A stretch of DNA of 64,000 bases from contig NZ_BMCR01000004.1 in NCBI RefSeq assembly GCF_014635285.1, forward strand, positions 248,001 to 312,000. Direction: 5' to 3'. Each line of letters begins with the position of its first letter. The first letter of the stretch is position 1. Of this stretch, positions 7,312-42,888 are shown one piece after another. This stretch comes from Stappia taiwanensis. Its GTDB lineage: Bacteria > Pseudomonadota > Alphaproteobacteria > Rhizobiales > Stappiaceae. The position numbers and the translations under genes were made by a program. Under the pieces are notes generated by a model, which made no database searches, was not told the origin of the DNA, and worked only from the letters and a program-made list of their open reading frames with translations.

Positions 7312-8013
7312 TCAGAGGCGGATCTGGCCGTAGCGCAGGGCCTCGACCACCGTATGCGTCTTGTTGGACGCATTGAGCTTGGCGCTGGCGTTTTGCAGAT
7401 GTGCATGAACCGTGCGCTGGGAGATCTCCAACAGGCTGGCGATGTCATTCGCGGTCTTGCCGAGCGCGGTCAGTTCCAGCACCCGTCGCTCGCGCGCGGA
7501 CAAATCGCCCGGCCGCTGGGTGGAGATCACCCCCAACTCGATCAGCCGCCGGAATGCGGCGTTGCAGATCAGCTCCAGGTTCGACAATTCGAGCTTGCCA
7601 CCGTTGATCCGCGCACCGCCACCCAGAACCAGTGCCTGGAAGGGATGGGCCTCCGTGATCGGTACCACCACCACCTGGGAGTCCGCGCCGATCGAGGCGA
7701 ACAGCTCCGAATGGGTGGTGTCTCCGGCCGTCACATCCCAGATGAACGCCCGCGAGCGCATCAGCCCCAGCATCAGCGCGCTGTCTTCCGCGTCGATGCC
7801 CGAACGCTCGATCCCACCGAGCCGCTCATCCGCCCACCTGAGGCGGTGTACCAGCCCTTCGATCGGCCGGTTGGGCATCGGCAGGCCGGTCACCAGGATA
7901 TGAGAGGCACCCATCCGGCGCAGCTGCGCCTCAATGACATCCAGAACGTGCTTGCCGGTCTGAGCCTCTGCAATCGCCGCAGCCTTTGACTGAATCTCTG
8001 TCGGGTCGGCCAT
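7312..8013 (-). CDS. LuxR-family transcriptional regulator
   Basis: 233 residues. The last ~65 residues are a clear GerE/LuxR helix-turn-helix (LSARERRVLELTALGKT, then ISQRTVHAHLQNASAKLN). The first ~160 residues fit the size and strand/helix pattern of the autoinducer-binding fold (SRAFIWDVTAG, VVVPITEAHPFQALVLGG), but the invariant Trp/Tyr/Asp set of acyl-homoserine-lactone receptors is not all evident. The ligand may therefore differ, or the domain may be degenerate. No luxI-type synthase is in the window, so it would be a LuxR solo here. Start at ATG 8013, preceded by AAAGG. A terminator follows the stop. Confidence 0.8.
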   Translation of the reverse strand: MADPTEIQSKAAAIAEAQTGKHVLDVIEAQLRRMGASHILVTGLPMPNRPIEGLVHRLRWADERLGGIERSGIDAEDSALMLGLMRSRAFIWDVTAGDTTHSELFASIGADSQVVVVPITEAHPFQALVLGGGARINGGKLELSNLELICNAAFRRLIELGVISTQRPGDLSARERRVLELTALGKTANDIASLLEISQRTVHAHLQNASAKLNASNKTHTVVEALRYGQIRL

Positions 8014-8515
8014 GGTTCTGCCTTTCAGTGAGCAACGTCGTCGGAGCCTATCCAGCGCGAGAGAAACTCGCCCTGATGATTCCCCCGCAATTCTCTGGCT
8101 TTCTCTGATCCGGACAGCCACCCGGAACCTGCAGACAGAGTCACACCGCCACCTTCTCAGCGGAACAAATGCCAACTCTGCCATCGTCAAAACTAAGAAC
8201 AGGAAGATACACGTTAACTGGCGGACGATCCAGATTCTTCGCAATTCAGCCCGAATGAGGAACGCAATCTTCCGTAACGATTCCCAATCACATCATCGCA
8301 CTATATTAGTGTCCAATACCATTTCAATCAACCAAAGATTGCGCCCCTGACGGCGCTTCGCACCAGTTATCCACGCCCCTTGTCCGCCCCCCTGGCGCCA
8401 TGGCCCTTGCCTTGCCGGCTCACCCCGATGCACAAAAGGCCCCCTCGCATTGCCTTCCCGCGAGAGGATCGGTCGATTCGCACCGTCAATCTAGCGTAAC
8501 TCTTTGAAAGATATC
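8014..8515. other. 502-bp divergent promoter region
   Basis: Separates the LuxR-type gene from the lipoprotein gene. The middle (about 8190-8340) is clearly AT-richer than its surroundings, as expected for two divergent promoters. No palindrome convincing enough to call a lux-type box, and no supported gene. Confidence 0.45.
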
Positions 8516-11699: not shown

Positions 11700-12916
11700 C
11701 AGATGTCTCCCGCCGCCGCGACCTGTCGTTCCCGGTCGGCGCCAGCAGCGGTACGCCGGCTTGCCACCCAGTCGCCAAGCCGCTCCAGCGCCCCGTCAAT
11801 CACGCTGTCGCGCTTGCAGAAGCAGAACCGGACGAAGTTGGACGGGGCATCGGACACATAGAAGGCCGAGACCGGCACCACCGCCACCCCCGCCTCTTCC
11901 ACCAGTTGCTGGCAGATGGCGACGTCATCGCCTTCCAGCCCGAGCGGGGAGACATCGCAGGTGACGAAATAGGTGCCGGCACAGGGCAGCACGCCGAAGC
12001 CCAGCGCGGCGAGCCCGCGCGAGATCCGGTCACGCTTTTCCTGCAGGTCGTCGCGCAGGTCGAAGAAATAATCGTCCTCCTTCGCCAGCCCGTAGGCCAC
12101 TGCCTTTTGCAGATTGGGCGGGGTGGTGAAGGTCACGAACTGATGCGCCTTGGCGATCGGGTCGAGAAGGTTCGGCGCGGCGGTGATGTAGCCAACCTTC
12201 CAGCCGGTCAGCGAAAAGGTCTTGCCGGCGGAGCCGATCCGCACGCAGCGCTCGCGCATGCCCGGAAAGGCCATCAGCGGCATGTGCGCGCGGCCATCGA
12301 ACAAGAGATGCTCGTAGACCTCGTCGCAGATCGCATAGACACCATACTCGATGCACAGCCTTGCGATCTCCGACAGCTCGTCCTCGCTGAACACCTTCGC
12401 CGCCGGGTTCATCGGATTGTTGATGAGGATCGCCTTGGTGTTCTCGGTAAAGGCCGCAGCGAGCGCCTCAAGGTCGAGCCGCCAGTGCGGCGGGGTCACC
12501 CGCAGGCGCACCGGAATGCCGCCCGCCCGCTTCACCAGCGGCAGGTAGCAATCGTACAGCGGCTCAATCAGAATCACCTCATCGCCCGGCTCCAGCAGGG
12601 CCATCAGGCTGTCGGCCAGCGCCTCGGTGGCACCGGAGGTGACCAGCACCTCGCTCTGCCAGTCGACATCGAGGTCATAGAACCGCTTGTTGGTCTCCGC
12701 CACCGCCTGACGCAACTCCGGCAGACCGAGCATCGGCGGATACTGGTTCGGCCCGTCGATCAGCGCGGAGGCGGCGATGCGGCGCACATCCTCCGGGCCA
12801 TCCACATCCGGAAACCCCTGACCGAGATTGATCGCGCCCGTGGCATTCGCCATCCGGGACATGGTTTCGAAAATGGTGGTTTGCAGGCCGGTGAACACCG
12901 GATTGGTCGGCTTCAT
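11699..12916 (-). CDS. Class I aminotransferase (MetAT/KAT-like, PLP fold type I)
   Basis: 405 residues. Motifs include the substrate-side INLGQGFPDVDGP, the pyridine-binding region NNPMNPAAKVF and CDEVYEHLLFDG, and the PLP lysine in GSAGKTFSLTGWKVG. The closest recognised relatives are the YbdL/kynurenine-aminotransferase-like enzymes that use methionine, glutamine or aromatic amino acids. The specific substrate is inferred only. It is the first gene of a two-gene operon and overlaps asparaginase by one base. Coupling to an asparaginase suggests catabolism of amide amino acids (inference). The intergenic region before it carries a perfect 14-bp palindrome, ggcggaattccgcc, at 13050-13063. Confidence 0.85.
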   Translation of the reverse strand: MKPTNPVFTGLQTTIFETMSRMANATGAINLGQGFPDVDGPEDVRRIAASALIDGPNQYPPMLGLPELRQAVAETNKRFYDLDVDWQSEVLVTSGATEALADSLMALLEPGDEVILIEPLYDCYLPLVKRAGGIPVRLRVTPPHWRLDLEALAAAFTENTKAILINNPMNPAAKVFSEDELSEIARLCIEYGVYAICDEVYEHLLFDGRAHMPLMAFPGMRERCVRIGSAGKTFSLTGWKVGYITAAPNLLDPIAKAHQFVTFTTPPNLQKAVAYGLAKEDDYFFDLRDDLQEKRDRISRGLAALGFGVLPCAGTYFVTCDVSPLGLEGDDVAICQQLVEEAGVAVVPVSAFYVSDAPSNFVRFCFCKRDSVIDGALERLGDWVASRRTAAGADRERQVAAAGDI

Positions 12917-13182
12917 GCTGGCATGTATCCCTCACCTGTCGCCGGAGGATCCGCGCGACGGACGCCGCGTATGTAGCCATTCAACATCGCGCCGTCGAGC
13001 ATGGATGCGCGAAAGGGGGAGCGCTTTTCCGCGCCGCCCCTCCCTCATTGGCGGAATTCCGCCGATGAAAAGCCTGGCTGAATGGCGCGGACGGCATCTT
13101 AACCGAAAAACCGAAAGTTGTCCGCCCCCGCCGGGACACGCCGCTTTCACGAAATTTGGCCTTGCCGTGGCTCCGCCGGACG

Positions 13183-14691
13183 TCAGCGCACCAGAATGTT
13201 GCGGAACTGCCAGGGGTCGCTTTCGTCCAGATCCTCGGGAAAGAGGCCCGGCCGGTCGGCAAGCGGGGTCCAGTCGGTGTAGTAGCCCTTCACCGGACCG
13301 AGGTAGGGCTTCTGGATTTCCAGGCAGCGGCGGTAGTCCATCTCGTCAGTCTCGACGATGCCCGCCTCAGGGTTTTCCAGCGCCCAGACCATGCCGGCAA
13401 TCACCGCCGAGGAGACCTGAAGGCCCGTCGCGTTCTGATACGGCGCGAGTTCCCGGGTTTCCTCGATCGAAAGCTGCGAGCCGTACCAGTAGGCATTGCG
13501 GGCGTGGCCATAGAGCAGGACGCCGAGTTCATCGACGCCGTCGAGGATCTCGTCCTCTTCCAGAACGTGGAATTCCGGCTGTACCTTTCCGGCCGCGCCG
13601 AACAGCTCATGCAGCGACAGCACCGCGTCATTGGCCGGGTGATAGGCGTAATGGCAGGTCGGCCGATAGACGGCCTTCTTGTTCTTCTTCACCGTGAAGT
13701 AATCGGCGATGGAGATCGATTCATTGTGGGTGACGAGGAAGCCGTACTGGGCGCCGGGCGTGGGACACCAGCTCCGCACCCGGGTGTTTGCCCCCGGCTG
13801 CAGCAGATAGATCGCCGCCTTGCAGCCCTTCTTGTGCTTGCGCGCATTTTTCGGCGCCCATTTCTCATGGGTGCCCCAGCCAAGCTCGGAGGGCTGGAAC
13901 CCTTCGGAGACGAACCCTTCCACCGACCAGGTATTCCAGAACACGTTCATCGGCTTGGGCGCGCGGGCGCGCTGGGTGTCGCGCTCGGCGATGTGGATGC
14001 CCTTGACGCCGACCTTGCGCATCAGCTTGGCCCAGCCCTTGCGCGTGGTCGGCTCCTCAAAGGCGGTGCCGGTGTCGCGGGCGATATCGACCAGCGCCTG
14101 CTTGACGAACCAGGACACCATGCCCGGATTGGCCCCGCAGCAGGAAACGGCGGTGGTGCCGCCGGGGGTCTTCTTCTTCTCGCGGCGCACGGTCTCGCGC
14201 AGCGCGTAGTTGGTCCGCGCTTCCGGCCCGGCGCTGTCATCGAAATAAAAGCCGAGCCACGGCTCAACGACCGTATCGATGTACAGCACCCCGAGCTCAC
14301 GGCACAGCTTCATCAGATCGAGCGACGACGTGTCGACCGACAGGTTGACGCAGAACCCCTGCCCCGCGCCCTCGGTCAAGAGCGGCGCCAGCACCTCGCG
14401 GTAGTTGTCCGGCGTGATCGCCACCTTGCGGAAGGCATAGCCCCGCTCCTCGACCAGCGCACGCGCGTCATCCACCGGATCGATCACCGTCACCCGGGCC
14501 GGATCGAAGCGGAAGTGGCGCTCGATCAACGGCAGGGTGCCCTTGCCGATGGAGCCGAAGCCGATCATCACGATCGGGCCGGAAATGGTGCCATGCACGG
14601 GATAGGCCTTGCCGGCCTTGGCCGGGGCCGGAGCCTCGTCCACGCCTTCGGGCGCGGCCGCCGCGTCCACCTGTGTGCGATCGGTCGTCAT
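13183..14691 (-). CDS. hss: Homospermidine synthase
   Basis: 502 residues. It would make sym-homospermidine from two putrescines with NAD+ as hydride carrier. The N-terminal NAD-binding loop GFGSIGKGTLP, the conserved SVDTSSLDLM and YIDTVVEPW segments, and CCGANPGMVS all fit bacterial Hss, as does the length. It lies 63 bases after the ornithine decarboxylase gene in the same direction, so putrescine made by that enzyme feeds it directly. The spacer contains a 7-bp hairpin (ccgccgg-cgcta-ccggcgg, about 14729-14747) without a T tract, which may set relative expression. Homospermidine instead of spermidine is common in Rhizobiales. Confidence 0.93.
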   Translation of the reverse strand: MTTDRTQVDAAAAPEGVDEAPAPAKAGKAYPVHGTISGPIVMIGFGSIGKGTLPLIERHFRFDPARVTVIDPVDDARALVEERGYAFRKVAITPDNYREVLAPLLTEGAGQGFCVNLSVDTSSLDLMKLCRELGVLYIDTVVEPWLGFYFDDSAGPEARTNYALRETVRREKKKTPGGTTAVSCCGANPGMVSWFVKQALVDIARDTGTAFEEPTTRKGWAKLMRKVGVKGIHIAERDTQRARAPKPMNVFWNTWSVEGFVSEGFQPSELGWGTHEKWAPKNARKHKKGCKAAIYLLQPGANTRVRSWCPTPGAQYGFLVTHNESISIADYFTVKKNKKAVYRPTCHYAYHPANDAVLSLHELFGAAGKVQPEFHVLEEDEILDGVDELGVLLYGHARNAYWYGSQLSIEETRELAPYQNATGLQVSSAVIAGMVWALENPEAGIVETDEMDYRRCLEIQKPYLGPVKGYYTDWTPLADRPGLFPEDLDESDPWQFRNILVR

Positions 14692-28333: not shown

Positions 28334-30007
28334 ATGCATGGAGGACTACGAGGCCCAAGTCTGCGCGACAAGGCCCAGCAACGCATCCGCTCTTCTCCCG
28401 CGGATGAAACCCCGGAAGTCGGCGGCGGGTCACTGCAAGCGGGCGAGGAATACATCGGCCTTGAGGATCAGGCCCGGCCCGGATGTCCCGACATCCCCAC
28501 CAGCGAGCATTTCTTCGCTCTGCTCGCCCGCAAGATGGAACGAACCCGGTACCCCTGGTCCGACGGTGATGGACACACCAATCCGCATATTCCGGCGGGT
28601 TATACCTATCTGGCGCAATTCGTTGCCCATGATCTGACCGTCAACAATGGCGTTGAAGAAAGTCGCGCGCCGAATGGAGCCAGCACCCATCAGCGCCCGC
28701 GTCCGCTCAACCTGGATACGCTCTATGGGGACGGACCGACGGTGGAACCGGCCTGTTTCGAACTCGTCACCCGGATGCCGCCGGCGCTTCGCTCCGGATG
28801 GCCCAAGACCCGGTTCCGCCTCGATGGCATTGCCGAGGACAATGGTCTGCGTCCCGCCGACAGCGCCCGTTGCCCACGCCGCGACATCGGCCGCGCCCTC
28901 GATCAGCGCGCGGGCGTAACGCGGGGAACGGCGCTGATCGCGGACACCCGCAACGACGACAATGCTGTGCTGTCGCAACTCACCGCCCTGTTCCAGATCG
29001 CCCACAATCTGGCCATGGACCGACTGGAACAAGGTCGCGAACCGGCAACCCCGCAGGCCAGCTTTCTGAACTTCATGGCCGCACGCGGCGCTCTCACCTT
29101 CGTCTACCACCAGATCCTGCGCCACGATCTGCTACCGCACCTGCTCGACCCGCACGTGCGCCAGCATTTCGAGACACACGGTCCCATCGGACCGGTGCGG
29201 GGAGAGACGACGCACGCCCCCCTGGCGGAGCCCGACTTCACCAATGCCGCGTTCCGGGTGGGGCATGCCATGGTCCGCGAACGCTACGCGTTCACCGGCC
29301 CCCCACCCGCCGAACACCGGCTGATCGACGTGCTGCGCCGAACCTCGGAACGCAATCCGCGTCGAACCCCGCACGGAAGCGACTGGATCATTTCCTGGTC
29401 GAATTTTTTCGACACAGGCCCCGGATCGCCACAGCCATCGGCGCGCCTGTCGCCGCAATACGAAGCCGCGCTGTGGGACGACACGCTGTTTCCGCCGATG
29501 GAGACAGGAACCCCACCCGGCCTTGCCTATCGGGACCTGGTTCGCTGCACCTTGTCCGGCGTGCGAAAGATCTCCGCGCTGAGCCGCCACATCGAAAGCC
29601 AGGCGCCCGCGCTGGCCGCCTGCAGCCCCTGGCTGACCGACCCTGCCCCGCGACATGCCGCGATGGCAACCTGGCTGGATGCGGAGCAAAGCATTGACAT
29701 CACCCCGTACCGGGCCATCGCAATCGCCGATCCGCCACCGCTATTGTATTTCTTGGTCGAGGCAGCCGCGTCCAACAACGGCCACAGGTCAGGACCACTC
29801 GCATCGGTTGTTATTGCAAATAATATCTACCTCCACCTTGACGATCATACCCACAAGGCGTCTAATCCCGTGGTTGCCGAAGAAGCGGCCAAGGTGGTTT
29901 TCGGCCCGAACGTCCCCAACACCATGCCGGAGTTGATAAAATGGACAGACCGCAATCTGAATATGAGAGAGAAGACTTTCAGGAACAGAGCCCTCCCTCT
30001 TTCATGA
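28334..30007 (+). CDS. Animal-type haem peroxidase family protein
   Basis: 557 residues without a signal peptide, so probably cytosolic. Haem-site residues of the peroxidase-cyclooxygenase superfamily are visible. H99 in AQFVAHDLTVNN is the distal His with its Asp, TRNDDN (206-210) is the Arg-containing motif, followed by the helix LFQIAHNLAMDRL, and H311 in FRVGHAMVRERYAF is the proximal His. The family uses hydrogen peroxide to oxidise halides or organic substrates. The stop overlaps the start of the 141-residue NHLP-like gene (ATGA), so the products are probably made together. The YcaO and BTAD genes converge from the other side. A peroxidase acting on a peptide product is conceivable (inference). 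Confidence 0.85.
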   Translation: MHGGLRGPSLRDKAQQRIRSSPADETPEVGGGSLQAGEEYIGLEDQARPGCPDIPTSEHFFALLARKMERTRYPWSDGDGHTNPHIPAGYTYLAQFVAHDLTVNNGVEESRAPNGASTHQRPRPLNLDTLYGDGPTVEPACFELVTRMPPALRSGWPKTRFRLDGIAEDNGLRPADSARCPRRDIGRALDQRAGVTRGTALIADTRNDDNAVLSQLTALFQIAHNLAMDRLEQGREPATPQASFLNFMAARGALTFVYHQILRHDLLPHLLDPHVRQHFETHGPIGPVRGETTHAPLAEPDFTNAAFRVGHAMVRERYAFTGPPPAEHRLIDVLRRTSERNPRRTPHGSDWIISWSNFFDTGPGSPQPSARLSPQYEAALWDDTLFPPMETGTPPGLAYRDLVRCTLSGVRKISALSRHIESQAPALAACSPWLTDPAPRHAAMATWLDAEQSIDITPYRAIAIADPPPLLYFLVEAAASNNGHRSGPLASVVIANNIYLHLDDHTHKASNPVVAEEAAKVVFGPNVPNTMPELIKWTDRNLNMREKTFRNRALPLS

Positions 30008-30429
30008 CTCTCACATCAGGTAAGGAAAGCCCTTCCGCACCACAGGAATTCGAGCGTATCAAGATCCACGATCACAAGGCGTTCGGGCGTCTGATCGCCG
30101 ACTACGCTATTGGTCGCAAGCCTTGGCCGGAGACCCTTGCCGAGTTCAAGGCCGAGGTCGAGGGGCGCAACATCGCCTCGGTGCCCGACCGTCTGAAGGC
30201 GATCCAGGTGGTACAGCCCTCGGAGGAGGTCTTCTTCCTGCGCCTGCCGCCACGCAAGATCATCGCCCAGTCACTGGATCGGTTCGCCCGTCACGACGCT
30301 GACGGCTCGGCCGAGCGCTATCCGCTGCCCCCCTTCTACGCCGACATGGTCTGCGGCGAGGAACAGTTCACCCATTCGGACTTCTTCCTTAGCCGGGTGG
30401 CCGATTACACCATCGCCGTGTGCACCTGA
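30004..30429 (+). CDS. Small protein with possible nitrile-hydratase-like leader (NHLP) signature
   Basis: 141 residues, translationally coupled to the peroxidase gene (ATGA overlap). No close family is recognised with certainty. Residues ~23-83 read KAFGRLIADYAIG, then LAEFKAEVEG, then VPDRLKAIQVVQPSEEVFFL and RLPP. This spacing of F..L..D, a VP turn, a V-V strand and a hydrophobic-LPP end resembles the nitrile-hydratase-like leader of RiPP precursors (NHLP, TIGR03793). The remaining ~58 residues have no Gly-Gly cleavage site and contain C117 and a penultimate C140 (ending AVCT). It may be a modified substrate of the YcaO protein or an accessory protein of the peroxidase. Confidence 0.55.
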   Translation: MTLTSGKESPSAPQEFERIKIHDHKAFGRLIADYAIGRKPWPETLAEFKAEVEGRNIASVPDRLKAIQVVQPSEEVFFLRLPPRKIIAQSLDRFARHDADGSAERYPLPPFYADMVCGEEQFTHSDFFLSRVADYTIAVCT

Positions 30430-30447
30430 TCGGCATCCGCTCTGGTG

Positions 30448-30495
30448 GCCGGGCGTCCCCTTGCGCGGCGCGCGCCCGGCACCTCGTCAGGTGCC
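30448..30495. terminator. Two hairpins between convergent genes
   Basis: GCCGGGCG (30448-30455) can pair with CGCCCGGC (30473-30480). GGCACCT-cgtc-AGGTGCC (30478-30495) forms a second hairpin overlapping the BTAD stop codon. Together they probably separate the converging transcripts. No T tract. Confidence 0.45.
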
Positions 30496-32607
30496 AGAGC
30501 GGCCCGGCACGGATGGGGGTGCCAGATCGGACGGCAAGGTCAACCCAGCCTGGGACAGCCCGTCCTGCAAGCTTTGCCAGACCGCCGGGTCGCTGATTGG
30601 AAAACAATTGCCAACCCAGCGGGCAATCTCCTCGCGGGAAGGCTTTTCCGGACGCACCCAGCGTTCGGTGATGTGCTGTTCAAGCTCACGGCGCTGCGCC
30701 TGGGCCTCGGCGACATCGCCGATCTGCGCCAGCGCGGCAACATACCAGGCCTCGACGCCGAGGTAGCCGCCGCTGAGATAACGAAACGCGCTGATGCAGG
30801 CGTGGTAATCGCCGCAAAGGAACATGATGCCGACGAAATAACTCCAATGCAGCGGCGAGGTCAGTAGACCGGTCTCGCGCTGCTGGCGGGCGATCCGCCC
30901 CGCCTCCTCCCGATACCCGTAATAGGCCAGCCCGTGCGCTGCCGAAAGCGCCGTCCAGGGGTCATTATCATTGAGTGCGAGCGCCTGGCGGTGATGTGCC
31001 TCCGCCTGTTGGAAACGACGCTGCAAGGCAGCGGTCCAGGCCATGCACAGATGCGCACGGGAATCGAACGGATCCAGCCCCAACGCGGTGCGCGCGAGTG
31101 CCGCCGCGTGATCGAGGGTCTCCGGCGACTGACGCGCCCCGGGAAAGATGATGTGCCGGGAATTGATGATCTGTGCCAGGCTGCTATAGGCCGGCCCGAA
31201 ATCCGGATTTTCCTTGATGATCTCGGAAATCATCGCCTCGGCCCGGCGCGATTCCTCGATCTTCCAGGTGAAATGCAGCCGCTGCCCCATCAGCAGCCGG
31301 TCATAGTGATCAAGCGAGGCCTCCGGCATGCGCGACATGCTGGCGAGCCGTTCAGCGGAAATGTTGACGTTCATGGCCAGCGCGATCTCCGCGACAAGGC
31401 TGGACTGGCGCGTGAACAATTCGCCAATACCGACCTCGGAGTTGCGGCCCCAGACATAGGCATTCGTACGCCAGTTCTTGACCGTTACCGAATAGGAAAC
31501 GCTGTGCTGCGAGCGCATGGCACTGATCGCCACCCGGTAAAGCGGCGCCGACGAGGCCGACAGTTCTTCCGTCAGCCCATCGGCAACCGACCACTCGCGA
31601 AACCGCACGAGGCGGGAGATCAGGTCATGCCGAAACACGCGAGCCAGGCGAGCGTCCTCCCCGGTTTCATCGACCTGCAGGATCTCGTCGACGATGATCA
31701 CCGGGCGCGGGCCATCAGCCGGATGCACAGCGCCCTCCCCGCCGCCGCTTTTCACGGGCTCCGCAGCAAGAGCCGCGCCTCCCTCAGCCGCAGGGGTCTG
31801 ACGCAGCCAGGAGGGGAAGCGGCCGAGCTTGATGTCGACGATCAGCGCCTGTGTCTCCCGCGCCGGCTGGGTGTCGAACTCCTCTTCAAGGACGTTCCAC
31901 AGATCCTCATAGGCCCTCAAGGCCGCCGTATAGTCGCCACGCGCGGCGCGGGCGGTGATGAAGGCGCGGCACGCCGGCTCGTGGGTCGGGTCGAGGTTGA
32001 GAAGGGCCACCGCTGCATCCTCGACCAGGTCCCAGTTGCCTTCACGTACCACAATCATCGGCTCCAGCATGCCACGCAGCCGGTCATGCACCTGCTGGCG
32101 GCGTACACGCAGCCAGGCGGTGAACGGATCGGCGAGCATCTCGCCGCCCTCAAACAAGCGCTCCGACAGTCGCTTTTCCGACAACAGCCGGGGAGCGATC
32201 GTCTTCCGAGCCTCCAGAACCTGATCGAGATCGGTCCGCACACGCGACAGGTCGATGCTGATGCAGAGCTTGTCGGAGCTCAGCGCATCGAAGCCGACCG
32301 CCTCCAGATTGCGCCGGAGAATCAACAAGGTCTGGCGCAGCGAGGAGCGGGCGTGATGCTCTGAGCTATCGCCCCAAAACAGATTCGCCGCCAATTCCCG
32401 CGACAGCCGCCCGTCCGGACTGAGGCACAGATAGCCCAAGAGCCCCTCCGCCTTGCGCGAGCGAAAGACGATCGGCTTCCCGCCCACCTCGAAGCGCGGT
32501 GTCCCCAACAGCCACGCATGCAGGAGCGGCCGGCCACCATCGGGTCCGGGAACCGCATCCCCTTGCGCCTGCTCACCCGCCCTAGCGTCATCCACGATCG
32601 CTGCCAT
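30487..32607 (-). CDS. BTAD-domain transcriptional regulator with TPR region (SARP-like)
   Basis: 706 residues. Residues ~30-110 are an OmpR-type winged helix (HAWLLGTPRFEVGGKPI, RKAEGLLGYLCL, ELAANLFWGD, SLRQTLLILRRNL). Residues ~115-265 form a bacterial transcriptional activation (BTAD) domain (LVEDAAVALLNLDPTHEPA, DYTAALRAYEDLWNVLEEEF). A middle domain of ~120 residues resembles the TolB-like segment seen in such regulators (VFRHDLISRLVRFREWSVAD). The last ~260 residues are TPR-like helices. Soluble, with no kinase or receiver, so probably ligand- or partner-controlled. It follows the YcaO gene by 135 bases on the same strand and is the likely local regulator of the YcaO/peroxidase locus. 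Confidence 0.8.
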   Translation of the reverse strand: MAAIVDDARAGEQAQGDAVPGPDGGRPLLHAWLLGTPRFEVGGKPIVFRSRKAEGLLGYLCLSPDGRLSRELAANLFWGDSSEHHARSSLRQTLLILRRNLEAVGFDALSSDKLCISIDLSRVRTDLDQVLEARKTIAPRLLSEKRLSERLFEGGEMLADPFTAWLRVRRQQVHDRLRGMLEPMIVVREGNWDLVEDAAVALLNLDPTHEPACRAFITARAARGDYTAALRAYEDLWNVLEEEFDTQPARETQALIVDIKLGRFPSWLRQTPAAEGGAALAAEPVKSGGGEGAVHPADGPRPVIIVDEILQVDETGEDARLARVFRHDLISRLVRFREWSVADGLTEELSASSAPLYRVAISAMRSQHSVSYSVTVKNWRTNAYVWGRNSEVGIGELFTRQSSLVAEIALAMNVNISAERLASMSRMPEASLDHYDRLLMGQRLHFTWKIEESRRAEAMISEIIKENPDFGPAYSSLAQIINSRHIIFPGARQSPETLDHAAALARTALGLDPFDSRAHLCMAWTAALQRRFQQAEAHHRQALALNDNDPWTALSAAHGLAYYGYREEAGRIARQQRETGLLTSPLHWSYFVGIMFLCGDYHACISAFRYLSGGYLGVEAWYVAALAQIGDVAEAQAQRRELEQHITERWVRPEKPSREEIARWVGNCFPISDPAVWQSLQDGLSQAGLTLPSDLAPPSVPGRSGT

Positions 32608-32742
32608 CCTGCATCCTGGAGCCCGATTGCCGACAGGTTATTCCGTCTGGCAGCCCCCTCCTTGCACTTCTTTTTCCAAGGCCCCTTCCGATACGGAGGC
32701 CCCACGCCACTGGCATCCTCTCACGGCCCGCCGTCCGAAGCG

Positions 32743-34062
32743 CTAGTACAGCGCCACCCGTTCGGCGGCCGCATCATCTCCGCCAGATCGCCTTTGAGTT
32801 GCCAAACGCTCCAATACCACATCCGAGGGGTCAGGTTGCAATCCGGTGATCAACATACGCGATACATAAATTCCGATGTCCTGCCGGGTCAGATCCACCC
32901 GATGCACGGCAAATCCCTGACCCGCCAAGCGGTCCACGACGGCCGGCAACAGCGCTTCCGGCTCTTCCGGCAAGGGCGGTGCCTGAGGCAAGGCAAACCC
33001 GCCCGGGTGCAGGATCGGCCAATCGCCCGCAACCTGGGTGCTGCGGCGCAGGTGCCGCCGATCCATATCGTTCAGCGCCTCCTCTCCGCCTTCCTGCCGT
33101 TTTGCCGCCACCACCCGGTCGGCAAGCTCGATCTGCATCAGTTCCTCCAGCGCGGCAAGACGTGCGGCATCCGGGGTCGCACGCGCGGCAAAACCATAGC
33201 AAAATCCCTGGCCCTGACGGTCCACCGACAGAGCGGCGGCAACGGGAACGCCAATCTCGCCCGTGAGATCGAGAAACCACGTCCGCCGACCCTGCACCCC
33301 GGCACGATACCGCGTCAGCCTGGCGCCCGTCTCGCCGGAAAGAAGCTCCTCCAGCGGCACCGCGCGCCCGCGCCGTCCGCCGCGCCACCACAGCGCCACC
33401 GCATCCCGTTCGATCCACTCCAGGATCGCCCGGCAATCGGCGTCCTGCGCGTTCCGACCGGCGGCAACACCGAGCCCCATGGCAAAACCCAGCCCATTGG
33501 CGAACCGTCCCTGCGCGCGACGCCAGCACAAGACAGCGGGAAGGCGCACCCAAACCCCGTCGGCCAGGCGCAACGCCGCGATATCGTCGCCGGTCCGCGG
33601 CTCCGCCGTCCCCAGCAGCGGCCACAAGGGCGCGCATTCTTCCTCGATCGACGTCAGGGTCTCGTCTGCGGGCTGGGCACGGGTTTCCCCCGCGATCTCG
33701 AACTGGGACACGAACTCCACGGCTTCGGCGACACAGGCCCGGAACGCGGTCAGCCGATCTGAGCCAACGCCGGAAACGGAGGTACGGGCATCATGCAGCG
33801 CGCCAAAGGCCGCGCTGGAAACCTGCGCTCCGAAACAGCCGAGTCCCGGCGCATCCGGAACCGGCAGTTCAAACAACCGGTCAAGCCGTGCCGCGGCGCG
33901 CAGCAGTGCCGCAAAATCATCATCGGGCTCTCGAACCTGCGCCTCCCCCGCTCCCAGGCCGCGCAAAAGGCGCCAGGCAGCCTCCATAGCCGCCTCGGGC
34001 AATGGCAGACCGGCCACCAGATCGGCTGCGGCCCGTAAGGCCTCTCGGGTTTCATCGCGCAT
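32743..34062 (-). CDS. YcaO-family protein
   Basis: 439 residues. YcaO proteins use ATP to activate amide backbones, making thiazoline/oxazoline, thioamide or amidine groups on peptides. The ATP/Mg-binding acidic pattern is visible: E113 and E116 in GVGSDRLTAFRACVAEAVEF, E215 and E218 in RAILEWIERDAVALWW after the NGLGFAMGLG glycine segment, and E306/E307 in LAALEELMQIE. The first ~90 residues are a helical extension of unknown function. The C-terminus (AERVALY) lacks the Pro-rich tail of TOMM cyclodehydratases, and no E1-like partner or TfuA gene adjoins it. ATG 34062 has a perfect GGAGG about 8 bases upstream; a start 33 codons earlier lacks one. YcaO assignment is good; the reaction is open. 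Confidence 0.82.
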   Translation of the reverse strand: MRDETREALRAAADLVAGLPLPEAAMEAAWRLLRGLGAGEAQVREPDDDFAALLRAAARLDRLFELPVPDAPGLGCFGAQVSSAAFGALHDARTSVSGVGSDRLTAFRACVAEAVEFVSQFEIAGETRAQPADETLTSIEEECAPLWPLLGTAEPRTGDDIAALRLADGVWVRLPAVLCWRRAQGRFANGLGFAMGLGVAAGRNAQDADCRAILEWIERDAVALWWRGGRRGRAVPLEELLSGETGARLTRYRAGVQGRRTWFLDLTGEIGVPVAAALSVDRQGQGFCYGFAARATPDAARLAALEELMQIELADRVVAAKRQEGGEEALNDMDRRHLRRSTQVAGDWPILHPGGFALPQAPPLPEEPEALLPAVVDRLAGQGFAVHRVDLTRQDIGIYVSRMLITGLQPDPSDVVLERLATQRRSGGDDAAAERVALY

Positions 34063-41008: not shown

Positions 41009-42379
41009 TCAGGCCGAGCGCCCTGCTCCTTGATCAACCGCTGCTTCGCGGATCTCGGAGAAAAATGCCCGAACCTGCTCGGAAATTTCCGAGGACTGAG
41101 ACCGCAGGGTCGCGGAAACGGTGAGGAAATCGTCCGCCGCCTTGCCGGTCGCGTCGATCGCCGCATTCACGCCGGTCACATTGGCGGACAGCGTCACGGT
41201 CCCCTGCGCCGCATTCTGCACATTCTCCGAAATTTCCCGCGTCGCCGCGCCCTGCTGTTCGATGGCGGCGGCAATCGCCGAGGTCAGTTCATCGATCTCG
41301 CCAACGGTGGAAGCGATGGACGAAATGGCGTCCACCGCATTGGTCGTCGAGGACTGCACCTCGGAAATCTGCATGGCGATGTCTTCCGTGGCCTTCGATG
41401 TCTGCCCGGCAAGCTCCTTCACCTCTTGGGCAACAATGGCAAAGCCGCGGCCCGCCTCACCGGCGCGCGCTGCCTCGATGGTCGCGTTGAGGGCCAGAAG
41501 GTTGGTCTGCGCGGCAATATCGGTAATCAGACGCACCACATCGCCGATCTTCTGCGCGGCCTCGGACAGACGGGCCACTTCCCTGGAGGTGGCGTCCGCC
41601 ATGCCGTTCGCGCGGCGCGCCACGTCGGATGCCCCAGCGACCTGCCGGGCGATTTCCTCGATCGAACTGGACAGTTCTTCCGCTGCCGAGGCCACCGTCT
41701 GCACGCTGACCGAGGTTTCTTCCGAAGCGGCCGAGGCGGAGACCGCCTCATCCGTGGCCGAGCCGGCAACCCCGGACAGCGTCCCGGCCTGCTCCTGCAT
41801 CCGGTCGGCGCTGACCTCCACGTTCTGCAGCGCGCTTTCCACCTTGACCTTGAAGGTCTCGACCGCCGCATTCAGGCGGTTGGTCTGGGCAACGCGCTGC
41901 TCGATCAGCATCTGCTGATAGGTGGAAATCGCAAAGTCGAGGTCGAGCAACACGACCTTGTTCAGGGCAACCACAGCCGCCGAGGTCTTGCGCGCGGAGA
42001 ACCGATGCTTGCGGATGATCAGCTCGGACAGTTCGTTGAGAACGAACTGGTAGCCGGCGATGTACCAGCGCGGCTCCAGACCGATGCGGCTATGAGCGCG
42101 ACCGATGCGGTCGATGCTGCGGACATACTCGTCATCGAACCGCCCCGAGAACAGGCGCTGCCAATGCGACTTCTGAGCCGACTGCAACCCGACCAGCCGA
42201 CCGTCCAGCATCGCCTTGAGCGACGGTTCCTTCATGAGATGGGCGTAAAAGCGCTCAAGAATGCCCGGCAACGCCTCCTCAACCATCGGCCAGAGCTCTT
42301 GCACCGCTCGCCGTGTATCCGCATCGATCCGAGCAAAGCCGATCCGACCCTCTATATCCGTCGACGCCACGTCCGACAT
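41009..42379 (-). CDS. Globin-coupled methyl-accepting chemotaxis protein (HemAT-like)
   Basis: 456 residues, soluble, with no membrane segment. Residues ~10-170 are a sensor globin; the proximal haem ligand would be H96 in RIGRAHSRIGLEPRWYIAGY. A coiled coil follows, then the MCP signalling hairpin (ITDIAAQTNLLALNATIEAA, GEAGRGFAIVAQEVKELA). It probably senses oxygen and signals through CheW/CheA. ATG 42379 has GGAG upstream; a GTG 20 codons earlier adds only a Cys-rich extension. An AT-rich upstream region holds a 7-2-7 palindrome. No other chemotaxis gene is nearby. Confidence 0.88.
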   Translation of the reverse strand: MSDVASTDIEGRIGFARIDADTRRAVQELWPMVEEALPGILERFYAHLMKEPSLKAMLDGRLVGLQSAQKSHWQRLFSGRFDDEYVRSIDRIGRAHSRIGLEPRWYIAGYQFVLNELSELIIRKHRFSARKTSAAVVALNKVVLLDLDFAISTYQQMLIEQRVAQTNRLNAAVETFKVKVESALQNVEVSADRMQEQAGTLSGVAGSATDEAVSASAASEETSVSVQTVASAAEELSSSIEEIARQVAGASDVARRANGMADATSREVARLSEAAQKIGDVVRLITDIAAQTNLLALNATIEAARAGEAGRGFAIVAQEVKELAGQTSKATEDIAMQISEVQSSTTNAVDAISSIASTVGEIDELTSAIAAAIEQQGAATREISENVQNAAQGTVTLSANVTGVNAAIDATGKAADDFLTVSATLRSQSSEISEQVRAFFSEIREAAVDQGAGRSA

Positions 42380-42888
42380 TCCACACACTCCGACAGATTG
42401 CAGCAAACACCCTCCGCAATTCAAGTTATAAGCCGACACACCTTATGGATTGATTAAAGATGCAAGGTTATCAACATAGGTAAAATTACCTAATATAAAT
42501 AAAATCGATCAAAATTCCCTGTAATTGTGCCATTAAAAATTTCAACCGGGCGAATGTGATACGAGATACAAAACCCTCCCTTACGTCACATTTCAGCGAA
42601 CAACGGTTCCGCGAGACAGAGTTTTTTTACATCTGGAAAGCCTGCGGCTTGGCGAGAAAAACAGCCACTTCGGCAAGGCCGGAAGTTACCAGGCCGGCTT
42701 TCCTGCGCGTTACTCGCAGGCATCACGCCAGCCTCAGAGCAAAATTGGCGCGGATGGTGCGAAAGGAGCCGAAAGGAAAGTAATCTTGTGCGGAAAACAA
42801 GCGCTTGCCGCCTCCGTGGGCACGGCCCGGAACGCCCCCGCCGGCGCCTTCGCCCTGTCCAGACCAGATCACAGCGAGGAATGAGGGG
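42380..42888. other. 509-bp intergenic region, AT-rich in part
   Basis: Bases ~42430-42560 are strongly AT-rich and contain the palindrome at 42477-42492, so they are the promoter region of the receptor gene. The rest up to the LysE gene has no supported gene: the one open frame on the plus strand (42556-42783) begins with GTG and lacks an SD. Confidence 0.45.
42477..42492. promoter_or_regulatory. TAGGTAA-aa-TTACCTA inverted repeat
   Basis: Perfect 7-bp arms with a 2-bp spacer in AT-rich DNA, about 100 bases upstream of the globin-coupled receptor start. Size and place fit an operator for a dimeric repressor or activator. Confidence 0.45.

Follow-up and report, generated by a model that had tools for sequence, protein, structure and literature searches.

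A four-gene cassette of Stappia taiwanensis and related bacteria links a standalone YcaO protein and a haem peroxidase to a small protein with a conserved C-terminal cysteine

We analyzed a window of 64,000 nt from the 4.42-Mb genome of Stappia taiwanensis (GCF_014635285.1, NZ_BMCR01000004.1:248,001-312,000), in which four genes encode a haem peroxidase, a small protein that we propose as a modification substrate, a BTAD/TPR regulator and a standalone YcaO protein (Table 1). The peroxidase and small-protein genes form one pair and the regulator and YcaO genes another, and the two pairs are convergent across a gap of 57 bases. An earlier note on this DNA had described such an arrangement between positions 28334 and 34062; all four genes were located there, and the peroxidase, regulator and YcaO protein have Pfam matches. 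The small protein can also be read in a longer frame that starts at 29941; we prefer the 141-residue form because homologue matches begin inside the longer reading, at its residue 25-39, in 11 of 12 other genomes, the exception being Stappia indica. The YcaO protein is the sole PF02624 match in the whole genome, and the closest named relative that we found, S. indica SN13-18, has a YcaO protein of 90% identity.

Table 1 Features of the four-gene locus and of short proteins at related loci. Positions are those of the 64,000-nt window unless another locus is named.
Feature	Location	Strand	Basis or remark
Haem peroxidase (peroxidase-cyclooxygenase or 'animal' type), 557 aa	28334..30007	+	PF03098, 31.6 bits (cut-off 25)
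Small protein, 141 aa, proposed modification substrate (precursor)	30004..30429	+	ATG overlaps peroxidase TGA
NHLP-like leader segment (putative), about residues 22-88, ending at LRLPP region	30067..30267	+	Profile comparison
C-terminal core R131-VADYTIAVC-T141 and stop codon, penultimate Cys140	30394..30429	+	Homologue conservation
BTAD/TPR (SARP/AfsR-like) regulator, 706 aa	30487..32607	-	PF03704, 42.6 bits (cut-off 22.1), and TPR matches
Standalone YcaO, 439 aa, C-terminal ...RVALY	32743..34062	-	PF02624, 121.6 bits (cut-off 25.7)
Short Cys-Arg-ending protein	L163 8779-9216	+	Missed by main small-protein profile
Short Cys-Arg-ending protein	L164 11028-11453	-	Missed by main small-protein profile
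Short Cys-Arg-ending protein	L165 6370-7149	-	Missed by main small-protein profile
Second YcaO-BTAD locus type, example	L041 5956-10477
Second YcaO-BTAD locus type, example	L044 9651-14156

The small protein is most conserved at its C-terminus. With class-level loci added, we collected 38 small proteins from 37 loci, and the motif R-[VI]-x-[DE]-Y-x4-C-x closes 37 of them; the 38th, at locus L180, has its Cys at position -3. Among the 37 homologues with Cys at -2, Arg at -11 and Tyr at -7 are each found in 37/37, and position -8 is Asp in 36/37 and Glu in 1/37. The looser pattern [RK][IVLFM]x[DE][YF]x(3-5)Cx(0-3)-end gave 35 matches in 11,365 stop-to-stop open reading frames (ORFs) from 53 loci and the window, and all 35 were the cassette small protein and fitted the strict form with a penultimate Cys. 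As a background rate, a penultimate Cys was found in 432/11,841 ORFs, cassette proteins counted in. The C-terminal Cys is the only Cys of the last 115 residues in 17/38 small proteins; the window protein has a second one, Cys117. Members are approximately 110-170 aa long, depending on the starts chosen, and combine a conserved N-terminal region with a C-terminal core beside a modifying enzyme, a layout like that of a precursor. A sequence search of the PDB with this family returned a single match (E 0.46). At locus L149 two small-protein genes stand in tandem (7435-7842 + and 7932-8339 +) and share the same C-terminal tail.

Three loci with YcaO, BTAD and peroxidase genes but no motif protein (L163, L164 and L165) encode a different short protein beside the peroxidase, without a Pfam match and ending in Cys-Arg. 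Since the Cys-x end recurs there, and an invariant Tyr is confined to the main family, we regard the penultimate Cys as the nucleus of the signal. The same search saw no protein of the Cys-Arg type in loci L039, L142 and L159.

The genes of the locus are linked well beyond S. taiwanensis. Among 61 relatives, a close YcaO (E ≤ 5e-37) is present in 14 and the small protein in 13, all of them within the 14 YcaO genomes (G042 is the YcaO genome that lacks the small protein), and the BTAD regulator adjoins YcaO in 14/14. Across the order, a profile search found YcaO at E ≤ 1e-20 in 58/397 genomes and small-protein homologues at E ≤ 0.01 in 31/397; in each of the 26 genomes with a small protein at E ≤ 1e-6 the fetched region also has a YcaO match, which in G246 consists only of fragments. 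We defined clade loci as the 28 places in the order, window included, with a YcaO score of at least 200 bits, and counted partners within 9 kb. BTAD accompanies 26/28 of these YcaO genes, the motif small protein 25/28 and the peroxidase 21/28, and all four genes occur together in 21/28, across many families. A region was chosen when it had a YcaO or small-protein match, which biases the counts for these two genes, whereas neither the peroxidase nor BTAD was selected for. The exceptions comprise four Stappia loci without peroxidase, L039 with BTAD only, and L142 and L159 with none of the three partners; the L159 locus, 10.1 kb on a contig of 13.1 kb, is truncated by the contig. In a selection of 20 lower-scoring YcaO loci (78-191 bits, not every such locus being included), BTAD was found at 14, peroxidase at 7, the motif protein at 4 and all four genes at 2. 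In G246 (L142, L143) the cassette YcaO is fragmentary and an intact clade YcaO without partner genes is found elsewhere on that contig, at a distance of approximately 1.3 Mb; its action in trans is possible.

Surveys of the class and phylum were queried with the small-protein profile only, YcaO not being used. Matches were found in 6 of 385 genomes sampled from the class, window genome included. The complete cassette is present in three of these, all outside the order (G643, G506 and G509); G768 encodes an NHLP-like protein but no other cassette gene, and in G546 none of the genes was seen. Six of 398 genomes sampled from the phylum match, all six in the same order. The cassette therefore belongs mainly to this order and occurs only sporadically in the rest of the class. 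The earlier note had allowed that the four genes might co-occur only by chance in close relatives; linkage through many families and in three genomes outside the order rules this out, and the four genes are a conserved cassette spread over many families of rhizobia-like bacteria. A plasmid-borne element was also rejected, as a search with the small-protein relative from L141 gave no match among plasmid records. Thirteen plasmid YcaO matches had query coverage of at most 50%, and the one inspected, on Bradyrhizobium plasmid p155_2, proved to be another kind of YcaO, encoded next to a SagB-family dehydrogenase.

Both enzymes look active, given the conservation of their active-site residues. In an alignment of 51 YcaO rows, with gaps set aside, E113 is kept in 50/50 and E215, E218, R219 and E307 in 49/49; E116 (48/50, Asp in 2), Q310 (47/49) and R402 (34/46, Lys in 10, other in 2) are less fixed. 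We take the conserved Glu and Arg positions to be those of the ATP/Mg site, and a degenerate YcaO, which the earlier note had named as an outcome that would refute its reading, is ruled out. The protein aligns to LynD, TruD, MusD and MJ1094, and its ERD and E..Q stretches match LynD and MJ1094. It ends in LY, as does each of the 11 further Stappiaceae sequences that were extended. The SagD-type model TIGR03604 scored 100.5 bits, below its cut-off of 219.25, and no Pfam or NCBIfam match for a RiPP recognition element (RRE) domain was obtained in the cassette, where RiPP stands for ribosomally synthesized and post-translationally modified peptide. In 36 peroxidase rows, Gln95, His99, Asp204, Arg206, Gly310 and His311 are invariant wherever a letter is present (33-35 rows): H99 in 35/35 and H311 in 33/33, presumably the distal and proximal haem His, while Asp100 is once replaced by Glu. 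Four of five peroxidase relatives tested with PF03098 exceed the cut-off and that of L140 falls below it at 20.8; a PDB sequence search gave no peroxidase relative at E ≤ 1. At L145 a second peroxidase frame (12011-13855 +) lies on the far side of YcaO.

The limits of the cassette were examined by clustering ORFs of at least 90 aa from 29 loci, which recovered YcaO in 28, BTAD in 27, peroxidase in 26 and, by BLAST, the small protein in 15. One more cluster (18 loci), which ranks between the peroxidase and the small protein, seems from an example ORF to be a shadow frame antisense to the BTAD gene, and such shadow frames apart no fifth family recurs in more than 8/29 loci among the top 25 clusters listed. 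Seven neighbours in the window were assigned by Pfam to an EamA protein, a Na/H exchanger, an NtrC-type regulator, a LysR protein, two formate-dehydrogenase-like subunits and a protoglobin receptor. In agreement with the earlier note, which had remarked on the lack of such genes, none of these seven encodes an E1-like (ocin-ThiF) partner, TfuA, a SagB-type or flavin dehydrogenase, or a peptide exporter.

The label 'NHLP-like', given to the small protein in the earlier note after the nitrile hydratase-like leader peptides (NHLP), is supported only as a distant, profile-level resemblance and fails as a direct match to a hidden Markov model (HMM). Residues ~22-88 align by hhalign with a profile of 57 NHLP or nitrile-hydratase-alpha-like sequences with a score of 26.5; none of 150 column-shuffled controls, which make a lenient null, scored above 18.4, and the reversed profile scored 13.0. 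The family profile also picks up an NHLP-like protein ending CCCW in L181 (E 1.5e-4, and 0.0046 in another search). In the same bacterial family, YcaO loci at a greater distance have BTAD together with short NHLP-type proteins. The leader is probably a distant relative of NHLP leaders; membership of the curated family is ruled out by the HMM result given below.

The best explanation for these observations, to which we assign a probability of roughly 0.6, is that the locus is a self-contained RiPP-like cassette in which YcaO modifies the backbone at the C-terminal Cys of the small protein. The small protein would be a long precursor, made up of an NHLP-like leader, a variable linker and a near-invariant C-terminal core, R-[VI]-x-D-Y-x4-C-x. 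The standalone YcaO would bind the leader and spend ATP on activating the amide before the penultimate Cys, and the simplest product would be a thiazoline, as suggested by known YcaO chemistry (PMC8442711, PMC12455567). The coupled haem peroxidase, which gene linkage leads us to suppose acts on the same peptide, may then oxidize it, either converting thiazoline to thiazole in place of a flavin dehydrogenase or acting at the invariant Tyr, and the BTAD/TPR protein would govern expression. NHLP precursor cores are hypervariable (PMC4603692), so a core that barely varies argues for a conserved cellular role, and an antibiotic is a less likely product than a group that resembles a cofactor, binds metal or acts in signalling. 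The gene set, its linkage, the conserved residues and the C-terminal motif are observations, and the relation of enzyme to substrate, the chemistry, the sequence of steps and the role of the product are inferred. The proposal in the earlier note of a RiPP-like system or a YcaO-dependent protein modification, with the 141-residue protein as substrate, finds good support in the co-occurrence, the Cys motif and the active-site residues; the peroxidase chemistry that it included is still conjectural.

Several results weigh against this explanation. The three clade loci L039, L142 and L159 (3/28) have no recognizable substrate. None of 29 small-protein members matches the NHLP HMM TIGR03793 at E ≤ 1, the hhalign comparison reached a probability of only 50.6%, and two structure models were too poor for use (mean predicted local distance difference test scores of 44.9 and 37.4). 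No protease or exporter recurs in the 29-locus clustering, although proteases elsewhere in the genome could serve. The peroxidase is absent beside 7/28 clade YcaOs. No match to it at E ≤ 0.001 was found anywhere in the Stappia genomes G002, G003, G004, G006, G009 and G013, which retain YcaO and the small protein, and in S. indica it is reduced to a remnant (L027 14061-14510). Conversely, Stappia genome G012 (L169) keeps peroxidase and BTAD and has neither YcaO nor the small protein genome-wide at E ≤ 0.001. On the YcaO tree the peroxidase absences fit at least 2 separate losses. As several Stappia have lost the peroxidase while keeping YcaO and small protein, it is not needed everywhere, and we read the loss pattern as YcaO and substrate forming one unit, with the peroxidase as a separable step and the regulator as the most constant companion.

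A bolder version of the RiPP-like explanation, possible but in our estimation doubtful, holds that the cassette makes an unprecedented peptide-derived redox or metal-binding group: YcaO would heterocyclize the penultimate Cys of a carrier, the peroxidase would oxidize or cross-link it (e.g., at Tyr), and the result would serve as an intracellular cofactor. One may also postulate a YcaO-dependent protein modification outside the RiPPs, in which the small protein is not cleaved and carries a modified C-terminus that works as a metal or haem ligand or a redox centre, for instance as a partner of the peroxidase. The length of the substrate, the constancy of the core across families, the missing protease and exporter, and the overlap of the small-protein and peroxidase genes in the window would all fit this scenario. 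We nevertheless consider it rather unlikely: the leader-linker-core layout resembles that of RiPP precursors, and seven Stappia loci (L027, L030, L033-L037) keep YcaO and small protein without an intact peroxidase, which therefore cannot be an obligatory partner.

The same losses could mean that two loose modules, YcaO with the small protein and peroxidase with BTAD (the latter perhaps for an oxidative or xenobiotic response), are joined by shared regulation only. G012, with the second module alone, and the six Stappia genomes that keep BTAD besides YcaO and the small protein but no peroxidase would be expected under such an arrangement, as would the BTAD gene at most of the lower-scoring YcaO loci, fewer of which have a peroxidase. 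This scenario appears improbable, however, given that peroxidase and motif protein both lie within 9 kb of YcaO in 21/28 clade loci, that their genes overlap in the window, and that the peroxidase also occurs in the three cassettes whose adjacent small protein is of another kind. That YcaO instead acts on another target (e.g., the peroxidase or a ribosomal protein), with the small protein as chaperone or adaptor, we think very improbable: non-RiPP YcaOs do exist, as NCBIfam family names record for archaeal McrA thioamidation and for the E. coli type acting on ribosomal protein S12, but conservation in the small protein is highest in a tail with a near-fixed penultimate Cys, the residue type used by YcaO enzymes, and L163-L165, whose small proteins differ, show the Cys-x end as well.

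The RiPP-like explanation invites comparison with known systems. Pyrroloquinoline quinone (PQQ) and mycofactocin resemble the role proposed here, in that RiPP-type pathways with an invariant core yield intracellular redox cofactors; they rely on radical S-adenosylmethionine chemistry and, unlike the cassette, are not known to involve YcaO or a haem peroxidase. Bottromycin clusters have a short precursor, methyltransferases, a P450 and an exporter, and so differ in their genes. One of the standalone bottromycin YcaOs forms a thiazoline from Cys without a partner protein (PMC8442711). Streptamidine-type clusters of Actinobacteria likewise tie a standalone YcaO clade to one widespread precursor family (PMC8442711), but precursor, host group and partner genes differ, and the word 'peroxidase' occurs 0 times in the main text of that article. 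Modification of NHLP precursors by a YcaO is known from the MprC/MprE azoline systems, with the oxidase MprD (PMC12455567); the cassette as proposed would have in common with them a long, putatively nitrile-hydratase-like leader and a YcaO acting on Cys in a C-terminal core. That system uses an RRE-domain YcaO, a flavin oxidase and ten precursors (PMC12455567), whereas the cassette shows no RRE match, no flavin dehydrogenase that we could find, a haem peroxidase, a near-invariant core, a weak leader resemblance and one precursor (two in L149). Clusters of YcaO-TfuA type also act on the peptide backbone to give thioamides, but with TfuA as partner (PMC8120280); the 29-locus comparison showed no additional recurrent family that might be TfuA.

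The earlier note had not recognized the system as described, and among the matches listed in the open-access literature we likewise found no recognizable description of YcaO with a haem peroxidase or of this precursor; subscription papers lie mostly outside that scope. A known defence system was ruled out, as the four proteins have no PADLOC match. We place the cassette, as a new one, within YcaO and RiPP-type systems; it would count as a category of its own only if the peroxidase chemistry showed it to be one. If our explanation is correct, haem peroxidase joins the enzymes found beside YcaO, a substrate family is added whose penultimate-Cys core is near-invariant over many bacterial families, and four genes with one conserved substrate Cys offer a compact genetic system for probing the role of standalone proteobacterial YcaO proteins.

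Two further observations concern neighbouring genes and related loci. In the window, the protoglobin-sensor chemotaxis receptor (41009-42439 -) lies beyond LysR and the two formate-dehydrogenase-like genes; a homologue of it adjoins YcaO in six Stappia relatives (L030, L033-L037), in whose fetched regions the formate-dehydrogenase-like genes were not found. Other Stappiaceae (L040-L045) carry a second type of YcaO-BTAD locus, in which we found no peroxidase, with two short proteins, one of them NHLP-like. The two of these NHLP-like proteins that were tested scored 33.5 and 29.1 bits against TIGR03793, under the cut-off of 50.9. This locus type is probably another undescribed RiPP-like family, and its second short protein has a conserved tail of its own, LG[KR]xALGxC[FY]Y[DE]xxPE.

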